Source of the DNA: Bowdeniella nasicola
Lineage (GTDB): Bacteria > Actinomycetota > Actinomycetes > Actinomycetales > Actinomycetaceae
NCBI RefSeq assembly: GCF_900107735.1
Contig: NZ_FNQV01000005.1
Coordinates: forward strand, 1 to 64,000
DNA: 64,000 bases
Reading direction: 5' to 3'
A model generated the notes under the pieces. It did not search any database. It was not told the DNA's origin and saw only the letters and a program-made list of their open reading frames with translations. Shown here one piece after another: positions 1 to 7,355 of this stretch. The translations under genes and the position numbers were made by a program. Each line of letters opens with the position of its first letter. Within the stretch, counting starts at the first letter, position 1.

Positions 1-18
1 CCCGTTACATTTATTGGT

Positions 19-236
19 AGGTCCTCACCAGAGGATCTGGTCGCTGGCCCTGGTATGGCTGTCTTGCCCTGTCATCGATGATCCGGGGGGTGTTGCCGCC
101 AGGGGTCCAGGACGCGCGTTGACTGCTGATAGGGACACGGCCCGACTTCGGTTGAGGTCTCTTCGTAACGTGGGTGCCAGCATCGGGTGTCATGACACCA
201 GCGGCCAGGGATACAAGCAGGACAAGGGAGCCTGTC
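19..236 (+). ncRNA. candidate IS110 bridge RNA (non-coding end of the element)
   Basis: IS110 recombinases use a structured RNA from the non-coding end next to the transposase to pair with donor and target DNA. This interval lies just upstream of the transposase start and starts with an 8-bp stem-loop: AGGTCCTC (19-26) pairs with GAGGATCT (31-38) across an ACCA loop, with one G-U pair. It also holds ATAGGGACAC (129-138), identical to the proposed right terminus at 1445-1454, as expected of a donor-binding loop. TTGAC precedes both copies, at 119-123 and 1433-1437. The RNA ends and the guide assignment are inference; no covariance model could be run. Confidence 0.4.
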
Positions 237-242
237 ATGACA
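186..242. repeat. two copies of the palindrome TGTCATGACA around the transposase start
   Basis: GGTGTCATGACACC (186-199) is a perfect 14-nt palindrome. Its 10-nt core TGTCATGACA recurs at 233-242, spanning the transposase ATG at 237. The arrangement could be an operator, part of the bridge RNA fold, or a way of limiting translation. I cannot choose between these from sequence. Confidence 0.5.
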
Positions 243-1436
243 ACCGAATACGCCATCACACTGGGACTCGACGTCGGGAAGTCCACCCACCACGGATGCG
301 CTCTCACTGCCGACGGGCAACGCGTGTACGACCGCGAGCTGCCCCAAGATGAGACCGCGCTGCGGAAAGTCATCACCAATCTTCAGCAGCACGGTTCGGT
401 GCTCGTCGTCGTTGACCAGCCGAACACGATCGGGGCATTGCCGATCGCTGTCGCTCGCGATCTCGGCGCGGGAGTCGCATACCTACCCGGGCTGGCGATG
501 CGCAAAGCCGCGGACCTGTATCCGGGACGGTCGAAGACCGACGCCAGGGACGCGTTCATCATCGCCGATACCGCCAGGACAATGCCACACACGCTCCGAG
601 CCGTGGACCGCAACTCCGAGGTCTTATCGGCGCTGAAGGTGCTGTCCGGGTTCGACGAGGACCTCGCTCGCGAGTCGACGCGCGCGATCAACCGTCTGCG
701 GTCCCTTCTGGTCCAGATCTACCCATCTTTGGAACGCGTTTTCCCTGGTGTCGTCCTCACCCGGGCGATCGTGTTGGATCTGTTCATCCGTTACCACGGA
801 CCCGCCGGACTCAAGGCTGCTGGGAAGGCCGGGGTGAAGCGGTGGGCACGTAACCACAGCAGGAAAGACCCGGGCCCACTCATCGACCAGGTTTTCACGG
901 CACTGTCTGAGCAGACTGTCACGGTGCCCGGTGCAGAAGCTGTCGAGCTCGTCATCCCGAGGGTCGCAGCACAGATCAAAGAGCTCAAGCACCAGCGGGA
1001 CATCGTTGCCGAAGAGGTCGAGAAGCTGGTCGACGACTTCCCTCTTTCCACGGTCTTGACGTCAATGCCGGGAGTCGGGGTCAAGACCGCAGCGCAGATC
1101 CTCCTGGCCGCCGGCGACATGTCCGCGTTCCCAAGCCCAGGACACCTGGCCGCCTACGCCGGGATCGCCCCAGTGACCCGACGGTCCGGGACGTCCATCC
1201 GAGGTGAGTTCCCCGCCCGCGCTGGGAACAAGCGGTTGAAGAACGCTTTGTTCCGGTCCGCGTGGGTCGCCTCATGCCACGACCCGCTGTCGAAGGCGTA
1301 TTACGAGCGGAAGAGAGCCGAGGGCAAGCGCCACAACGCGGCGGTCATGTGCTTGGCGCGTCGCCGACTGAACGTCATGTACGCGATGATGAAAACAGGC
1401 ACGCTATACGAGCCCCGAATCTCTGCAGCTGCTTGA
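237..1436 (+). CDS. IS110-family transposase (DEDD recombinase)
   Basis: This 399-residue protein catalyses RNA-guided recombination of the element. The N-terminal RuvC-like domain shows D12 (in LGLDVGK), D60 (VVVDQP), and D102 and D105 (KTDARDA). These match the family's DEDD tetrad, with Asp in place of Glu at the second position. The C-terminal IS116/IS110/IS902 domain is complete, with MPGVGVKTA, AAYAGIAP, RRSGTSI (which carries the likely catalytic serine) and GNKRLKNAL. ATG 237 is preferred over an in-frame ATG at 174 because residues MTTEYAITLGLD match the usual family start and the extension lies inside the presumed RNA gene. The frame is intact, so the element may be active. Confidence 0.93.
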   Translation: MTTEYAITLGLDVGKSTHHGCALTADGQRVYDRELPQDETALRKVITNLQQHGSVLVVVDQPNTIGALPIAVARDLGAGVAYLPGLAMRKAADLYPGRSKTDARDAFIIADTARTMPHTLRAVDRNSEVLSALKVLSGFDEDLARESTRAINRLRSLLVQIYPSLERVFPGVVLTRAIVLDLFIRYHGPAGLKAAGKAGVKRWARNHSRKDPGPLIDQVFTALSEQTVTVPGAEAVELVIPRVAAQIKELKHQRDIVAEEVEKLVDDFPLSTVLTSMPGVGVKTAAQILLAAGDMSAFPSPGHLAAYAGIAPVTRRSGTSIRGEFPARAGNKRLKNALFRSAWVASCHDPLSKAYYERKRAEGKRHNAAVMCLARRRLNVMYAMMKTGTLYEPRISAAA

Positions 1437-1454
1437 CAACCACCATAGGGACAC
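1433..1454 (+). other. proposed right end of the IS110 element
   Basis: TTGAC (1433-1437) followed 7 nt later by ATAGGGACAC (1445-1454) resembles TTGAC-N5-ATAGGGACAC at 119-138 in the left non-coding region. The repeated motif and its position straight after the transposase stop mark it as the likely donor end. The exact last base cannot be fixed without an empty site. Confidence 0.45.
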
Positions 1455-1480
1455 CCCCCGAACGCACCAAGGAGACTGCC

Positions 1481-2485
1481 GTGAAGGCCTGGACGATCGC
1501 CGCGCTTGCCGCCGCTACGGGCGCCGGAGCATGGTTCGCGCGCCGCCACCGTCAGGTCCAACTGGCCCATCCCAGCCTGCGTCACCGGCTCAACTATCGC
1601 GTGCTGCCGGTCAACAACCCGCTCGTCCTTGCCTACTACCAGCACATCGTGCACAAGCCGACTCCCGTCCTGGAGGGCGTCAGCGTCGAGCACCTCCAGA
1701 TCCCCACCGCGGCCCCGGACGACGACCACCTCGTTGACCTGTATGTCTATACCCCGCAGGCGGGTGTCACGTCCCGCGGCGCGCTGCTGTGGGTCCACGG
1801 CGGCGGCCTCATTATGGGCAGCGCCGCCCTCGACCACACGCACTCTTCGCAACTCGCACTCGACCTCGGCATCACCGTCGCCTCCGTCGACTACCGCCTC
1901 GCGCCGCACCACCCCTTCCCCGCAGCACTCAACGATTGTTTCGCGGCCCTGGCATGGCTCGCCGATGAGGCCACGAAGGGGCGCTTCGATCCCGCGCGCC
2001 TCGTGATCCTTGGCGCATCCGCCGGTGGGGGACTGGCAGCCGCGACGGCCCAACGCGCGCACGACGAGGGGATCGCGCTCGCCCTGCAAGGCCTCATTTA
2101 CCCGATGCTCGAATCCGGCACGGGGCACACGCCCATGCCTGGCAAGGGCGAATTCTCCTGGACCCCCTCGGCCAACCGCTACGGCTGGCGCAGCTACCTC
2201 GGACGCGACGTCACCAATCGCGACGGGCGCCCCTACGCGGTGCCCGCCGAGCGCGAGGACCTGTCTGGCCTAGCGCCGGCGTGGATCGGGGTGGGCGAAC
2301 TCGATCTGTTCTACGATGAGGACCTGCGCTACGCCGCGCGCCTTCGCGCAGCCGGCGTCCCCGTCGACCTCGTGACCGTGCCGGGCATGTACCACGCCGC
2401 CGACGGTCTGCGTCCCGAAGCACCTGCAATGCTCGAATTCCGCGCCGCCATGCTCAGCGCCCTGCGAGGAGCCCTCGCCTCCTAG
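1481..2485 (+). CDS. alpha/beta-hydrolase fold-3 esterase (hormone-sensitive lipase family)
   Basis: This 334-residue protein is a predicted esterase of short acyl esters. The oxyanion-hole motif HGGG is at residues 106-109, the nucleophile S180 sits in GASAG, D275 in GELD and H305 in MYHA complete the triad, and DYRLAP (137-142) is the typical family motif. The first 20 residues are hydrophobic (WTIAALAAATGAGAWFA) and followed by arginines, so it may be membrane-anchored. The GTG start at 1481 has AAGGAG 6 nt upstream; an upstream in-frame extension runs into the transposase gene and is rejected. It starts 26 nt after the IS end, so IS promoter activity could drive it. The natural substrate is unknown. 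Confidence 0.85.
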   Translation: MKAWTIAALAAATGAGAWFARRHRQVQLAHPSLRHRLNYRVLPVNNPLVLAYYQHIVHKPTPVLEGVSVEHLQIPTAAPDDDHLVDLYVYTPQAGVTSRGALLWVHGGGLIMGSAALDHTHSSQLALDLGITVASVDYRLAPHHPFPAALNDCFAALAWLADEATKGRFDPARLVILGASAGGGLAAATAQRAHDEGIALALQGLIYPMLESGTGHTPMPGKGEFSWTPSANRYGWRSYLGRDVTNRDGRPYAVPAEREDLSGLAPAWIGVGELDLFYDEDLRYAARLRAAGVPVDLVTVPGMYHAADGLRPEAPAMLEFRAAMLSALRGALAS

Positions 2486-2577
2486 CGCCGGCGACACACA
2501 ACCGAGCGCGGCCGCCCGCAGCCACTAGAAGCCGCGCTAAGGGCGCCCGACGGCCTCCGCGGTGTGCGCCTGACCGA

Positions 2578-3321
2578 CTACTCGGTGCGCGCCTCCTGCT
2601 CGGCCTCAAAGCGCTCGATATTGCGCTTCAGCGGCGCATAGTGGCTCGCAACCGCGGCCAAATATCCAGCCAAATCGCCTTCCTGCGCCGAACGCAGCAT
2701 GTCCCCGTGCGAGCGCGCCGTCACCGCAATGTCCTCCGGTGTCGGCACGCCGAGCATCGGCGCCGTCACCGTGTGAATCTTCCAAAACGCCTCCACGAGC
2801 TGCATGAGCAGCGTCGAGGCAAGCGGCTCCACCAGGCGCACATGAAAAGCCCGATCCTCGTTGACGAAAATCTCGCCACGGTCAGCCTTCTCAGTCATGT
2901 CTTCGACGAGCTCATCGAGCTCCGGGTGCAGCTTGCCACGCATGAGCTCGACGAGGCTCGGGCCGATCGAGACATCGAGGCGGTGGCGCACGTCGACGAT
3001 CTCTTTCAGGATCTGCAGGCTTGAGCCCTGCTGCGATATCGCGCCGCGAAAGACGATCGAGTCGATCATCGGCTGCAGCGACATCTGGCCGACGAAGGTG
3101 CCCGTGCCGTGACGCACCTCCACGATGTCGAGAGCGCTCAGCGTACGGATCGCCTCGCGCACCGAGGATCGGGAGACCTCCAGCATGTCGCACAGTTCGG
3201 ACTCGGTCGGCAAGGGGTCGCCGGGGCGCAGGCCCTCGCGCAAAATGAGGTCCTTAATGTGCTGCATCGTGGCGTTGTGGAGGAGTCGAGCCGCTCGCGG
3301 CTTTGGGGGCGGGTTCGCCAT
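2578..3321 (-). CDS. GntR-family regulator with FCD domain (possible NanR-like)
   Basis: This 247-residue repressor-type protein has an N-terminal winged helix-turn-helix (about residues 12-80, with PGDPLPTESEL, VSRSSVREAIRTL and VEVRHGTGTFV) and an all-helical FCD ligand-binding domain (about 100-230). FCD regulators bind acids or sugar acids and often control the neighbouring catabolic genes. It is divergent from a binding-protein remnant and a NanE remnant, so a sialic-acid-responsive role is plausible but inferred. A palindrome lies in the shared promoter region (3366-3385). The gene looks intact although its likely target operon is destroyed. Confidence 0.88.
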   Translation of the reverse strand: MANPPPKPRAARLLHNATMQHIKDLILREGLRPGDPLPTESELCDMLEVSRSSVREAIRTLSALDIVEVRHGTGTFVGQMSLQPMIDSIVFRGAISQQGSSLQILKEIVDVRHRLDVSIGPSLVELMRGKLHPELDELVEDMTEKADRGEIFVNEDRAFHVRLVEPLASTLLMQLVEAFWKIHTVTAPMLGVPTPEDIAVTARSHGDMLRSAQEGDLAGYLAAVASHYAPLKRNIERFEAEQEARTE

Positions 3322-3365
3322 CTGGCTACCTTTCGTGACCGTGGGCGAAAGTGCAGTATATGCGC

Positions 3366-3385
3366 CTCACACGTCGGCGTGTGAG
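3366..3385. promoter_or_regulatory. candidate operator in the divergent regulator/transporter promoter
   Basis: CTCACACG (3366-3373) and CGTGTGAG (3378-3385) form a perfect 8-bp inverted repeat with spacer TCGG. It lies just upstream of a TATACT -10-like hexamer that reads leftward for the GntR gene (about 3356-3361), where autorepression would be expected. A second, imperfect palindrome ATCAGACGTCCGAT lies near 3439-3452. The regulator's true site is unproven. Confidence 0.4.
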
Positions 3386-3468
3386 AGTTCTTGCGCTTGT
3401 CTGCTCTTCCACGTACCCCAACTGTACCAGCGTCAGACATCAGACGTCCGATATGTCAGGAGACTCCA

Positions 3469-4429
3469 ATGATGAATCCAACGGGAGGGACGGATCGCCG
3501 CAGCTTGCTGAGGCTTGCGGGCACCCTCACTGCTGCGGCCGGCATCGCGGCCACACTCTCAGCCTGCGGCGGCGACAAGGGTGGATCTCCACTACGAGCC
3601 CGGCAGCGGGCGGCTCCGGTAACGGTGGCGGCGAAGGCGGCAGCATCAATGCCGGCATTTCCTACGAGCTCGGCACCAACGGCTACGACCCCATGATGAC
3701 CACCGCGGCACTCACCGTCGCCGCGAACTGGCACACCATGGAGGGCCTGTTCGAAATCATGCCGACGGAAGACCGCACCTGCTACGCGGCTCTGTCTAAG
3801 GACTCCGAGCCCGTCAAGGTCGACGAGATCACCTACGAGGTCACGCTGCGCGATGGCGCGAAGTTCCACAACGGTGAGGACGTCACGGCCGAGGACGTCG
3901 TCTTCTCCTTCGAGCGCGTGCTCGACCCGGCCAACCAGTCGCTGTATGCCGGCTTCATCCCCTTCCTGGACTCGGTCCAGGCCAAGGACGACAAGACCGT
4001 CACGCTGAAGCTGAAGTACCCCTTCTCCCTGGTGAAGGAGCGCCTGGCAAACGTGAAGATTGTCCCCAAGGCTGCAGCCCAGGACAAGGAAGCCTTCGAC
4101 GCCAACCCCGTCGGCACCGGCCCCTACAAGATGACCGACAACGGCTCCGCCTCGGCCCAGGTCGTCTTCGAGAAGTTCCCCGACTACACCGGTCCCAAGC
4201 CGGCCAAGGCCGACAAGATGGTTTGGCAGATCCTGCCCGACGCCTCTACCCGCACCAACGCCATCGAGTCCAAGTCCGTCCAGGCAATCGACTCGGTGCC
4301 CTACCTGTCCATCGACCAGGTCAAGGGCTCGGCAAACGTCGAATCCGTCCAGGGCTTCGGGCTGCTGTTCATCATGTTCAACAACGGCGATAACTCGCCC
4401 ATGAAGGACCAGAAGAACCGCCAGGCCGC
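3469..4429 (+). pseudogene. ABC transporter substrate-binding lipoprotein (SBP family 5), frameshifted and truncated
   Basis: ATG 3469, preceded by CAGGAGA, opens a lipoprotein signal (RRSLLRLAGTLTAAAG, lipobox LSAC). Reading then breaks near 3586-3588: after CGGDKGG the frame must jump to continue with TTSPAAGGSGNGG and the SBP_bac_5 body (YEVTLRDGAKFHNGEDVTAEDVVFS, shortened here to its key residues RDG, FHNGE and DVVFS). A duplicated TC in GGATCTCC explains the shift. About 320 residues remain of a family norm of 500 or more. The coding sequence stops matching after KDQKNRQA at 4428, where NanE sequence begins. It is clearly non-functional; the substrate was probably a peptide or a sialic-acid-type sugar. 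Confidence 0.85.
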
Positions 4430-4897
4430 GTCTACATCACGCCGTCCATCGCGCACGCCCGCGCCTGCGCCTACGCGGGTGCCTCTATCATCGCGATCGA
4501 CGCGACGCTGCGGGAGCGCGGCGAGCAGGAAACCTTCGCCGACGCCGTCGTCGCAATCCACGACGAGTTTCCGGGCGTTGCGATCATGGCGGACTGTGCC
4601 TCGCTCACCGACGCCAAGGCAGCCGAGGATGCGGGCGCCGACATCATCGGAACGACGCTCGCCGGCTACACCCCCGGCTATGAGTACGCGCGGGAGAAGA
4701 CCGACGGTCCCGACGTCGACTTCGTCCGCGAGGTCTTCGACGCTGTCTCCGCGCCCGTCGTCGTCGAAGGGCGGCTGCATCGCCCGGAGGACGTCGCCCG
4801 CGTTTTCGAGCTTGGCATCCACGCCGCGTGCGTGGGAACGGCCATCACTCACCCGACGACGATCACCCGCTGGTTCGCCGAAGCCGCCGGAAACTAG
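4427..4897 (+). pseudogene. nanE: NanE (N-acetylmannosamine-6-phosphate 2-epimerase) C-terminal remnant
   Basis: Read in the frame of CGC GTC TAC at 4427, about 156 residues match the C-terminal two thirds of NanE: VYITPS, AGASIIAIDATLRER, IMADCAS, GADIIGTTLAGYTPGY and PVVVEGRLHRPEDV. NanE converts ManNAc-6-P to GlcNAc-6-P in sialic-acid catabolism. The N-terminal third, including the region that carries the catalytic lysine in characterised NanE proteins, is missing, and no start codon or ribosome site precedes the remnant. It is joined to the truncated binding-protein gene in a different frame, showing a deletion that removed the genes between them. Confidence 0.85.
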
Positions 4898-4959
4898 CGC
4901 CCCGTAGCTGCCTCGCGGCGGCTTCGACGAGCGCACCCCAGCGCCAATGAGCGCCGCTA

Positions 4960-5041: not shown

Positions 5042-6941
5042 TTAGAAGGGTGGTGGTCCGTTGAGGGCTTCGTCGAAGCGCCAGTCGTTGGCTAGGGTGA
5101 AGCCGCGCGGCTGCCCTGCCGCGCTTGTCTGCGTTGCCTCAGGTGTCATCGCGGTATCGGTGTTCGCGGTGGTGGTGAGGGGTTCATCTCCAGGCCGGGG
5201 TGGCGCGCCTGGTTTGGGGATGGCACACACGGGCGACGTGAGCCGGGGATGGTAGATCGGTTGTTGGTCGGGGTCGATCCGGCGGGGTGGCCGAGCTGCG
5301 GGGATCCCGTTCTGGTCGATGATGATGGTCCAGCTGTTGGGGTCACCGGGTGGTTTCTCGACTCGGGGATGATGCCGTGAACACACGAGTGCCAGGTTGG
5401 TGAGGTTGGTGGGGCCGCCACTTTCCCACGAAACAATATGGTGCGCTACGCATCCCTCGGGTGGGTCGGTACACATCGGGAAGACACACCCCCCCGTCCC
5501 GGAGGGCTAGGAGTTTCCGTAGCTTCTTGCTAGCGAGCCGGGTTTCTCGTCCCCGGTCTGCTTCGCGTGTGTCCCAGATGTGGCGGGTGCGCTCCGGAAA
5601 AGCGAGCAGCGCATCGTCTGCTGACACTGTGTGCGGGGCGGGCGGTGCCGGCGTCAACACCATGGTTTCTGGTTCGGTTGTGCTGGTTGTCGGCTCCGTG
5701 GCGCTGGCGCTGGGACGTGAGGTGTCGCCATAGGTGAAGTCATCGTCTGCCATGATGCGGTCGATAAGCGACTCGGCATCATCTTCAAAGGAGTCCGCTT
5801 CCGGGCCCTCGATATCGGCTCCATGACTTCCATTGCCACCAGGGTTATTCGGGAGCGGGCTTCCGCCACCACCATTGTTGCCTGACGGGCCGTCCTCACC
5901 TGAGGGGTCGTCGTCACCGGAGGGGCCGTCGTCACCGGAGGGGTCGTCGTTGCCGTAGGGGCCGGGGCCGTCGAACGGGTCTTCGTCGTTGAAGGACTCG
6001 ACGCCGTCGAAGAGATCTTCGGAAGGATCTTGACCTGTCGGGTCCTGGCCGTTGTCGGTGTCGTTTCCGGTGAGGTGGGTGAGGTCGTCTGCCTCGGGTG
6101 GGTAGTGCCCGGTCATGGTGGTGAATAGTGCATCCAACAACCGGGTCTTCCGGTCGGCAGCCTTGCGGGTTTTGCTGTGGCGTTGGGCTCTTGCGATGGC
6201 TTCGGCTTTCTTCTCCAATGCTGGCATCAAGATGCGCAAGTATTCGGCGGGGATGTGGGCGAACAGGTTCGCCCCAAACTCACCGTCTTGGATCAGCGTG
6301 ATCGCGAGCCCCCGCTCATCAAAGGACTGCTTGCGTCGTTTCGCGGTCGCGGCATTGTTGGCCTTACGTAGCGCTTCATCCAACATTTCGAGGGTGGTGC
6401 GGCATTTCTTACGGAACTCACCCGGTACCGGAGTCTCCGCCTCTTCCAACAATGCTGCTTCCACGTGCGGGAACTCGGTCTCGCTGTAGTGGGGCCGCAT
6501 CTTCTCCAGCGTTTTGACCGCGGTATGCAGGTTGTCTTGGGAGATGCGGGATGCTGCGGCGGCTTTCAACACGTTCGGGAACTCAGCCTGAGAACGGGCG
6601 GTACGGATCTCGCTGGTGGCAGCATTCTTCGGGATGCGGCGTTCTTCAGCGATGACGTCTGCCATGGATAAGCCATCGATCTCGGCAGCACCCGCCCGGT
6701 CGGCTGCAGCAATAATCTGCGTGCGCAGCGTCGATACCGCATTAAATGCGCGTTCGATGTTGCGGGCCGCAATCAACTTATGCAGCGCCTCAGGCAGATC
6801 AACACCGTTCTCCACCGCCGCCGCAAGGATCCCAATCCCGAGATTCAATAGGTCTTCCGACACGACAGGCGCAGTACCTGCGGCCGGGTGGCTGGTGGGC
6901 ACATCAAGACCAGCCGCCTCGAACAACGACGTGAGTTCCAT
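5042..6941 (-). pseudogene. DUF222 / HNH endonuclease-domain protein, single frameshift
   Basis: The N-terminal part (from ATG 6941, with GGAGGGAGG upstream) is a DUF222 (13E12-type) helical domain, followed by an acidic, low-complexity DPSG linker and then the start of an HNH domain. The frame is lost in a run of seven C at 5489-5495 on the + strand. With six, RDGGCVFPMCTDPPEGC would read straight into VAHHIVSWESGGPTNLTNL and CSRHH, the intact HNH motif in the other frame, ending at 5042. These multi-copy actinobacterial genes are often mobile or variable, and their cellular role is not established. The break may be real, phase-variable, or a sequencing error. Confidence 0.85.
5886..5965 (-). 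repeat. short tandem repeats encoding a DPSG/GPSG linker
   Basis: A unit of about 15-16 nt, GTCGTCACCGGAGGGG with variants, repeats in the HNH gene and encodes DDPSGDDGPSGDDDPSG-type residues. It separates the DUF222 region from the nuclease region. Copy number may vary by slippage. Confidence 0.6.
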
Positions 6942-7355
6942 AATGCGCCTCCCTCCAGCCAAACAGTGGGCGGATGATCTGTGCCTGCTGCGAGTGCTGC
7001 AAGCGACTGACCACGATCAAACCAACACGTCAACACCCAAAAACCTTGGACCCCCGAAAACCCGGATGCGCAGAGCGTCGGGAGGCGGAGTGTGGAGAAC
7101 GACGGCCAGGCGAACAAGCCCTCACCACAGGGCCATGTGGTCAGCAGTCCGCAACAATTGCGTCCTCGCGCGCGTACGCGCAGGCGCGCGCAAGTGGGTA
7201 CGCGCGCAAAACGATGGGCGTACGAGAGCGTGCGTGCACCCGTAGCGGTCGGGGGAGTGAGGGGCATAGCCCGTCGTGATGAGCGAACAGAACTTCGTGA
7301 GATGATGGCCTTGTGCGAGGTGGTCGATGTCACCCGTAGATGCGCGCCGGGTTAC
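6942..7355. other. gene-poor spacer between the HNH gene and rplJ
   Basis: No supportable gene is present in about 410 bases. Reading frames here lack ribosome sites and recognisable residues. The most distinct feature is a CpG-rich alternating tract at 7167-7207 containing the palindrome GCGCGTACGCGC (7170-7181). This spacer marks the change from accessory DNA to the conserved ribosomal/RNA polymerase region. The usual rplK and rplA do not occur upstream. Confidence 0.5.

Follow-up and report, generated by a model that had tools for sequence, protein, structure and literature searches.

What does the non-coding leader of the recombinase gene at the start of Bowdeniella nasicola contig NZ_FNQV01000005.1 (RefSeq assembly GCF_900107735.1) encode, and where does the mobile element to which it belongs begin and end? 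The window analysed here is the whole stretch of 64,000 nucleotides from positions 1 to 64,000 of this contig, and a sequence-only reading of its opening part had proposed the bridge RNA of an IS110 element with a single donor guide. Our comparisons make it very probable that window positions 1-1453 form an intact IS110-group insertion sequence with a bridge RNA encoded in its left end, and they support the earlier reading in substance. An IS110-group element with a bridge RNA is of a kind already known; what is new here is the apparent one-sided reading of the target and the unequal junction cores.

The element and its ends

The element, its recombinase gene and its junctions are laid out as follows.

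1-1453, plus strand: complete IS110-group element, intact from left core CC to right core CA; delimited by the maximal repeat in its own genome, 13 Helcobacillus copies, 113 junction sets and, for the register, an ISEc20 empty site
1-2, plus strand: left junction core CC, present in 113/113 left junctions; it takes the place of target AA in the ISEc20 insertion at fadL-yfdF
3-8, plus strand: right donor half CGTTAC, putatively paired by the right donor guide, with which it co-changes
237-1436, plus strand: IS110 recombinase of 399 amino acids, with D12, D60, D102, D105 and a conserved C-terminal serine; from Pfam, NCBIfam and the IS621 structure
1445-1453, plus strand: left donor half ATAGGGA and right junction core CA; from empty sites and junction sets
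1454-1459, plus strand: right target half CCCCCC, which is host DNA; outside Streptomyces, 91-100% of sites have C at each position from +1 to +6, and from +7 on the bases are random

The recombinase gene is intact and has all four acidic residues, as had been read from the sequence. Its product carries the N-terminal RuvC-like DEDD domain (PF01548, E = 3.9e-47) and the C-terminal Transposase_20 domain (PF02371, E = 6.6e-24), with the serine present in 73/76 ungapped relatives, and it matches the NCBIfam IS110 equivalog at 6.1e-66. The IS621 structure is matched at 1.7e-15, the similarity being significant mainly in the C-terminal half, and the solved ISCro4 recombinase was also matched. The second catalytic acid is D60, and all 78 relatives with a residue at this position have D there. 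A left end of 236 bp, a right end of 17 bp and an RNA upstream of the gene place the element in the IS110 group rather than IS1111, and by inspection the ends CCCGTTACATTT and CATAGGGACA have no inverted match.

Both ends could be fixed, as had been suggested earlier, from other copies with their flanks: 13 copies in Helcobacillus massiliensis, further relatives and empty sites in Escherichia coli. The Helcobacillus copies have different flanks and identical ends, with CCCGTTACC on the left and ATAGGGACA followed by C's on the right. The register was set by ISEc20, which is 54% identical in amino acids to the window element and has many E. coli insertions. The empty site at fadL-yfdF is GGATACTC-AA-CCCCCCTGG; once filled, it reads GGATACTC-CC-CGTTAC on the left and AATAGGGG-CA-CCCCCCTGG on the right. 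It follows that the C run is host DNA, that the right end stops at CA and that insertion removes both core bases of the target. A second ISEc20 site (L177) agrees with this register; a further copy (L178), in which one C of a homopolymer differs from its empty site, was left out. The element begins at window base 1, not at position 19, with which the span given before had opened.

Junction statistics were drawn from 113 non-redundant junction sets of related insertions, in which the right core is CA in 106/113. An AC core, or a longer conserved left target CCCGTTAC, was rejected: the left junctions hardly vary there and the right junctions do. One might instead take the C run as part of the element's right end, with target choice not guided by positions 85-92, given that at least five C's follow the right end in nearly all copies. 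We give this almost no credence, since the E. coli empty sites carry the C run, the run varies among copies (CCTCCCC in L023, CCCCTC in L011, CCCACC in L200), and in the clade with an inverted donor site, described below, it lies on the opposite side.

The sequence of positions 1-1461 lies, without differences, at four contig ends of the Bowdeniella genome. A count of four copies was rejected, as these are contig-end repeats and two of the contigs (C6 and C25) represent one locus, judging from congener synteny (the ribosomal protein L1 gene followed by that of an alpha/beta hydrolase); this leaves at least two copies in the genome. A decayed relative of the element, with 55-58% amino acid identity and one stop, lies on another contig (G000:C20:2156-3216). 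The recombinase at 237-1436 is 94-95% identical to that of a Brevibacterium ravenspurgense copy (L011), and in 200 genomes of the family to which the host belongs the best relative found reaches 72%; from this comparison, a recent transfer between families is likely. Among phages, we found nothing beyond a 72% match in Streptomyces phage TurkishDelight. Five Corynebacterium copies (L046, L048, L052, L057, L083) have different left flanks and one common right flank (AACACCACCCCACCCC...), as if inserted at another repeat's edge. The right junction of L105, ATAGGGG-CA-CGTTACAC, resembles a donor junction and not a C-run target.

The predicted bridge RNA and its guides

The leader (about 18-208) has the layout of the IS621 bridge RNA, namely a 5' stem-loop, a target module and a donor module.

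19-38, plus strand: predicted 5' stem-loop of the bridge RNA, AGGTCCTC (19-26) with GAGGATCT (31-38); from the fold
37-208, plus strand: predicted bridge RNA body, with an outer closing stem of 37-44 with 199-208 and a predicted transcript of about 18-208; from the fold
45-107, plus strand: predicted target-binding module, with a stem of 46-59 with 95-107 and a hairpin of 71-73 with 80-82; from covariation
61-68, plus strand: putative left target guide position, GTCTTG and core CC; register from Streptomyces relatives, with no detectable target constraint in the window's clade
85-92, plus strand: putative right target guide, GGGGGG and core UG, complementary to target CA-CCCCCC; from the guide-target match and joint switches with targets
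111-191, plus strand: predicted donor-binding module, with a stem of 111-126 with 176-191; from covariation
129-137, plus strand: putative left donor guide, ATAGGGA and core CA (ATAGGGACA); identical to 1445-1453, with which it co-changes
165-173, plus strand: putative right donor guide, GTAACG-U-GG, which would pair with CC-CGTTAC around one bulged U; from complementarity to 1-8 and co-change

The 8-bp stem-loop with one G-U pair that had been seen at the start of the leader, and the outer closing stem, come from the fold of the window's own sequence. The other stems were assessed in a leader alignment of 46 relatives against shuffled and slid controls. Across 26 pairs, 93.8% of the cells are paired and 17/26 pairs have changed on both sides; the covariation score is 0.512, compared with 0.247 +/- 0.010 for shuffled alignments and at most 0.127 for slid ones, so that the conserved, covarying stems proposed earlier as a check are strongly present. 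In the target module (helix 1), 95.3% of the cells are paired and double changes occur in 7/12 pairs, and in the donor module (helices 3 and 4) they occur in 9/11. Rfam gave no match within positions 1-3000, up to E = 1. On these comparisons the leader is a conserved structured RNA with two predicted loops, the donor loop matching both ends of the element and the 3' side of the target loop matching the C6 target.

The guides change together with the DNA that they would read. The left donor guide and the right end are concordant as GGA with GGA in 58 sets, GGG with GGG in 49 and GAA with GAA in 1, and 4 sets are discordant. The right donor guide and the left end follow each other with zero exceptions in the 113 junction sets (CG/CG in 100, CA/TG in 13): all 13 elements with CATTAC have GTAATG, and all 100 with G at that position have GTAACG. 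A T-to-C variant at another position of the left end, CGCTAC (L071), retains GTAACG. When pairs are counted as independent on the corrected tree, agreement is found in 2/2 for the right donor half and its guide, 4/4 for the left donor half and its guide, and 1/1 for the right target and its guide. Donor guides that covary with the element ends in this way are what a bridge RNA predicts, and such covariation with the right end is seen, over the family as a whole, for the segment at 129-138 that had previously been put forward as a donor guide. The putative right donor guide and right target guide had escaped the sequence-only reading and are located in this analysis.

The repeat that first drew attention to the leader, ATAGGGACAC, has only two occurrences within positions 1-1600, at 129-138 and 1445-1454. 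Its functional part is 9 nucleotides long rather than 10 (ATAGGGA and CA), because the target C run begins with base 1454 and position 10 of the left donor guide varies in relatives. The estimate that a chance match would arise once in a hundred or less holds well; for a shared 10-mer between positions 1-236 and the 28-bp right end, P is about 0.004.

A structured leader directly upstream of a gene could also be a cis-regulatory element of that gene, acting as an attenuator or in translational control, with the end matches incidental, and regulatory roles of IS110 ends have been proposed in earlier work (cited in Durrant et al. 2024, PMC11208160). We consider this very unlikely, as it predicts neither the co-change of separate unpaired segments with both ends and the target nor a guide match that survives inversion of the donor site. 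One may also suppose that ATAGGG, CGTTAC and C runs are recognised directly by the recombinase protein, for which the leader copy would be a second binding site; the donor motifs are indeed strongly conserved across the family. The leader is complementary to the left end and to the target and does not repeat them, and it follows their base changes (GTAATG where the left end has CATTAC, A-run guides where the target is a T run), which makes recognition by the protein highly improbable.

Target reading, junction cores and the inverted donor site

The right target guide matches the right target at 5.73 of 6 positions, a value reached in 0 of 5000 permutations, and it covaries with the target, with a single origin on the tree. 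Four Streptomyces elements (L145, L197, L202, L206) have A-rich guides and matching T-rich targets, the pairs being GAAAAAG with CTTTTTC, GAAAAGG with CCTTTTG and GAAAGGG with CCCTTTC. In the window's clade, each of the six positions to the right of the core carries 1.3 to 2.0 bits (about 10 bits in total), and every position to the left carries at most 0.3 bits. Reading of both sides was not found in this close clade, where the left guide match is 1.66 compared with 1.52 +/- 0.13 when shuffled. In Streptomyces relatives it is 3.95 compared with 3.24 +/- 0.17, and the left target side is also C-rich with a defined register; this register places the corresponding left target guide at 61-68 in the window. 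Judging from the insertion sites, the left target guide would be idle in the window's clade, which appears to read the right target half only, so that any CCCCCC tract may be a potential site. A literature search on C-run targets of IS110 elements, with most subscription journals outside its reach, found nothing relevant. The G run of the target guide is 5 to 9 long among copies (L098, L133, L048, L226) and differs even between near-identical copies within one genome, a pattern that slippage could produce and that supplies guides of naturally varying length.

A sister clade in Brevibacterium shows the donor site the other way round. Its elements (L019, L020, L035, L076, L077, L079, L221-L250) carry GGGGGG-TG-CCCCTAT on the left and ATGTAACG-GG on the right, which correspond in reverse complement to the right and left ends, respectively, of the other elements; their guide, ATAGGGGC, matches the inverted end. 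On the corrected tree they form one fully supported clade, whose sister group comprises the copies from the window and from B. ravenspurgense, and the exact inverted right-end motif occurs in 7/396 genomes of the order, all of one genus. In 18 distinct left junctions, six G's stand beside the core in 15 and at least five in 17, from which it follows that this clade uses the same C6 targets with the opposite polarity of insertion. A local inversion would suffice to produce the arrangement.

Joining the ends of the window element would bring together two promoter-like boxes.

6-11, plus strand: -10-like box TACATT, which could serve only in the circular form; it follows TTGAC after an 18-nt spacer in 34/41 distinct circle junctions
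1433-1438, plus strand: -35-like TTGACA, overlapping the stop codon; TTGAC is conserved before the right end

The joined sequence runs from TTGACA through 18 nt to TACATT and is compatible with a circular intermediate carrying a reconstituted promoter. In the inverted clade the -35-like TTGACA keeps its usual orientation, and joining of the ends there too leaves an 18-nt spacer, to TATATT. The sequence-only reading had pointed out TTGAC before both copies of the repeat; it is present in both places, and the parallel is a coincidence, the TTGAC in the leader not being conserved (GTGAC, CAGAC and others). Circle excision and transcription across the junction are known for the IS110 family (PMC11208160; PMC11187229). 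By extension from the IS621 and ISEc21 systems, the element would be excised as a circle, end joining would create the promoter that transcribes the RNA, and recombinase and RNA would then join circle and target at the core, with strand exchange through a serine-linked intermediate. For the unequal cores, a circle with different cores on its two strands, followed by repair favouring the element, would suffice.

Several points weigh against the assignment. The cores are unequal (CC left, CA right), unlike the CT on both sides of IS621: a single dinucleotide at both junctions and in the target was not found, and the target core is AA in one ISEc20 empty site. The left target guide of the window's clade matches targets no better than expected by chance. 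The exact empty site of the window's own insertion was not found in congeners, and the register rests on ISEc20; in one congener (G033) rplA and the alpha/beta hydrolase gene are adjacent and syntenic with the window flanks, and the strong divergence of the DNA between them kept the site from being recovered. The window copy has its left flank on another contig. Each trait has few independent concordant changes (2, 4 and 1), no trait being significant alone by a sign test. The force of the argument comes from the agreement of three separate guide-DNA relations together with the RNA structure.

For the whole we lean, with modest conviction, towards a joint reading in which the left target guide is idle and recognition of six C's by the right target guide is enough; the junctions would keep donor-derived cores (CC left, CA right) with loss of the target's two core bases, and in the sister clade an inversion of the donor site of about 20 bp would have reversed insertion polarity while the RNA stayed in place. 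The family would be a natural case of one-sided target reading, unequal junction cores and evolved donor-site reversal with reversed insertion direction. Bridge recombinases are under development for programmable DNA insertion, and the family lends itself to direct tests of which share of a bridge RNA is required and of whether the donor site behaves as a module of its own. A testable reading is also gained for ISEc20, a named and common E. coli element.

Neighbouring genes and known systems

Two loci further along the window caught our attention. At 3351-4907, a gene for an SBP_bac_5 solute-binding protein lacks the part for the C terminus and leads, in another frame, into the C-terminal half of a NanE gene (4586-4897), an arrangement such as a deletion would leave. 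On the minus strand at 5042-6962, a long open reading frame (5343-6962) is overlapped by an HNH frame (5042-5476) in another frame, and the two look like one frameshifted HNH gene.

Among characterised elements, IS621 (Durrant et al. 2024, PMC11208160; Hiraizumi et al. 2024, PMC11208158) shares with the window element the IS110 group, an RNA in the left end, and a 5' stem-loop, target loop and donor loop. The likeness extends to a left donor guide of 8-9 nt including the core, discontiguous pairing of the right donor guide with the donor, a right target guide complementary to the right target and a promoter across the circle junction, the last predicted here from sequence. The two differ in that IS621 has CT at both ends, where the window element has CC on the left and CA on the right; that IS621 reads both sides of an 11-bp target, whereas the window's clade has its 10 or so bits on the right and almost none on the left; and that the window element has D in place of E60.

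ISEc20, from E. coli and Shigella, is closer in its end motifs (CCCGTTAC and AATAGGGGCA), its C6 target, its target guide of a G run and UG and its right donor guide GTAACG, and differs in a GGGG-type donor guide with core dinucleotide TC and in its gammaproteobacterial host. ISRhosp7 of Rhodococcus jostii RHA1 (L141) belongs to the same subfamily, with ATAGGGACA at the right end, CCCGTTAC at the left end and a G6-UG guide, at an amino acid identity of about 59% to the window element. ISEc21 and the seekRNA systems (PMC11187229) are likewise of IS110 type with an upstream non-coding RNA, which in them is needed for circle formation and transposition; the target, in contrast, is a defined sequence in IS3-family transposase genes with matches required on both sides and no C run.
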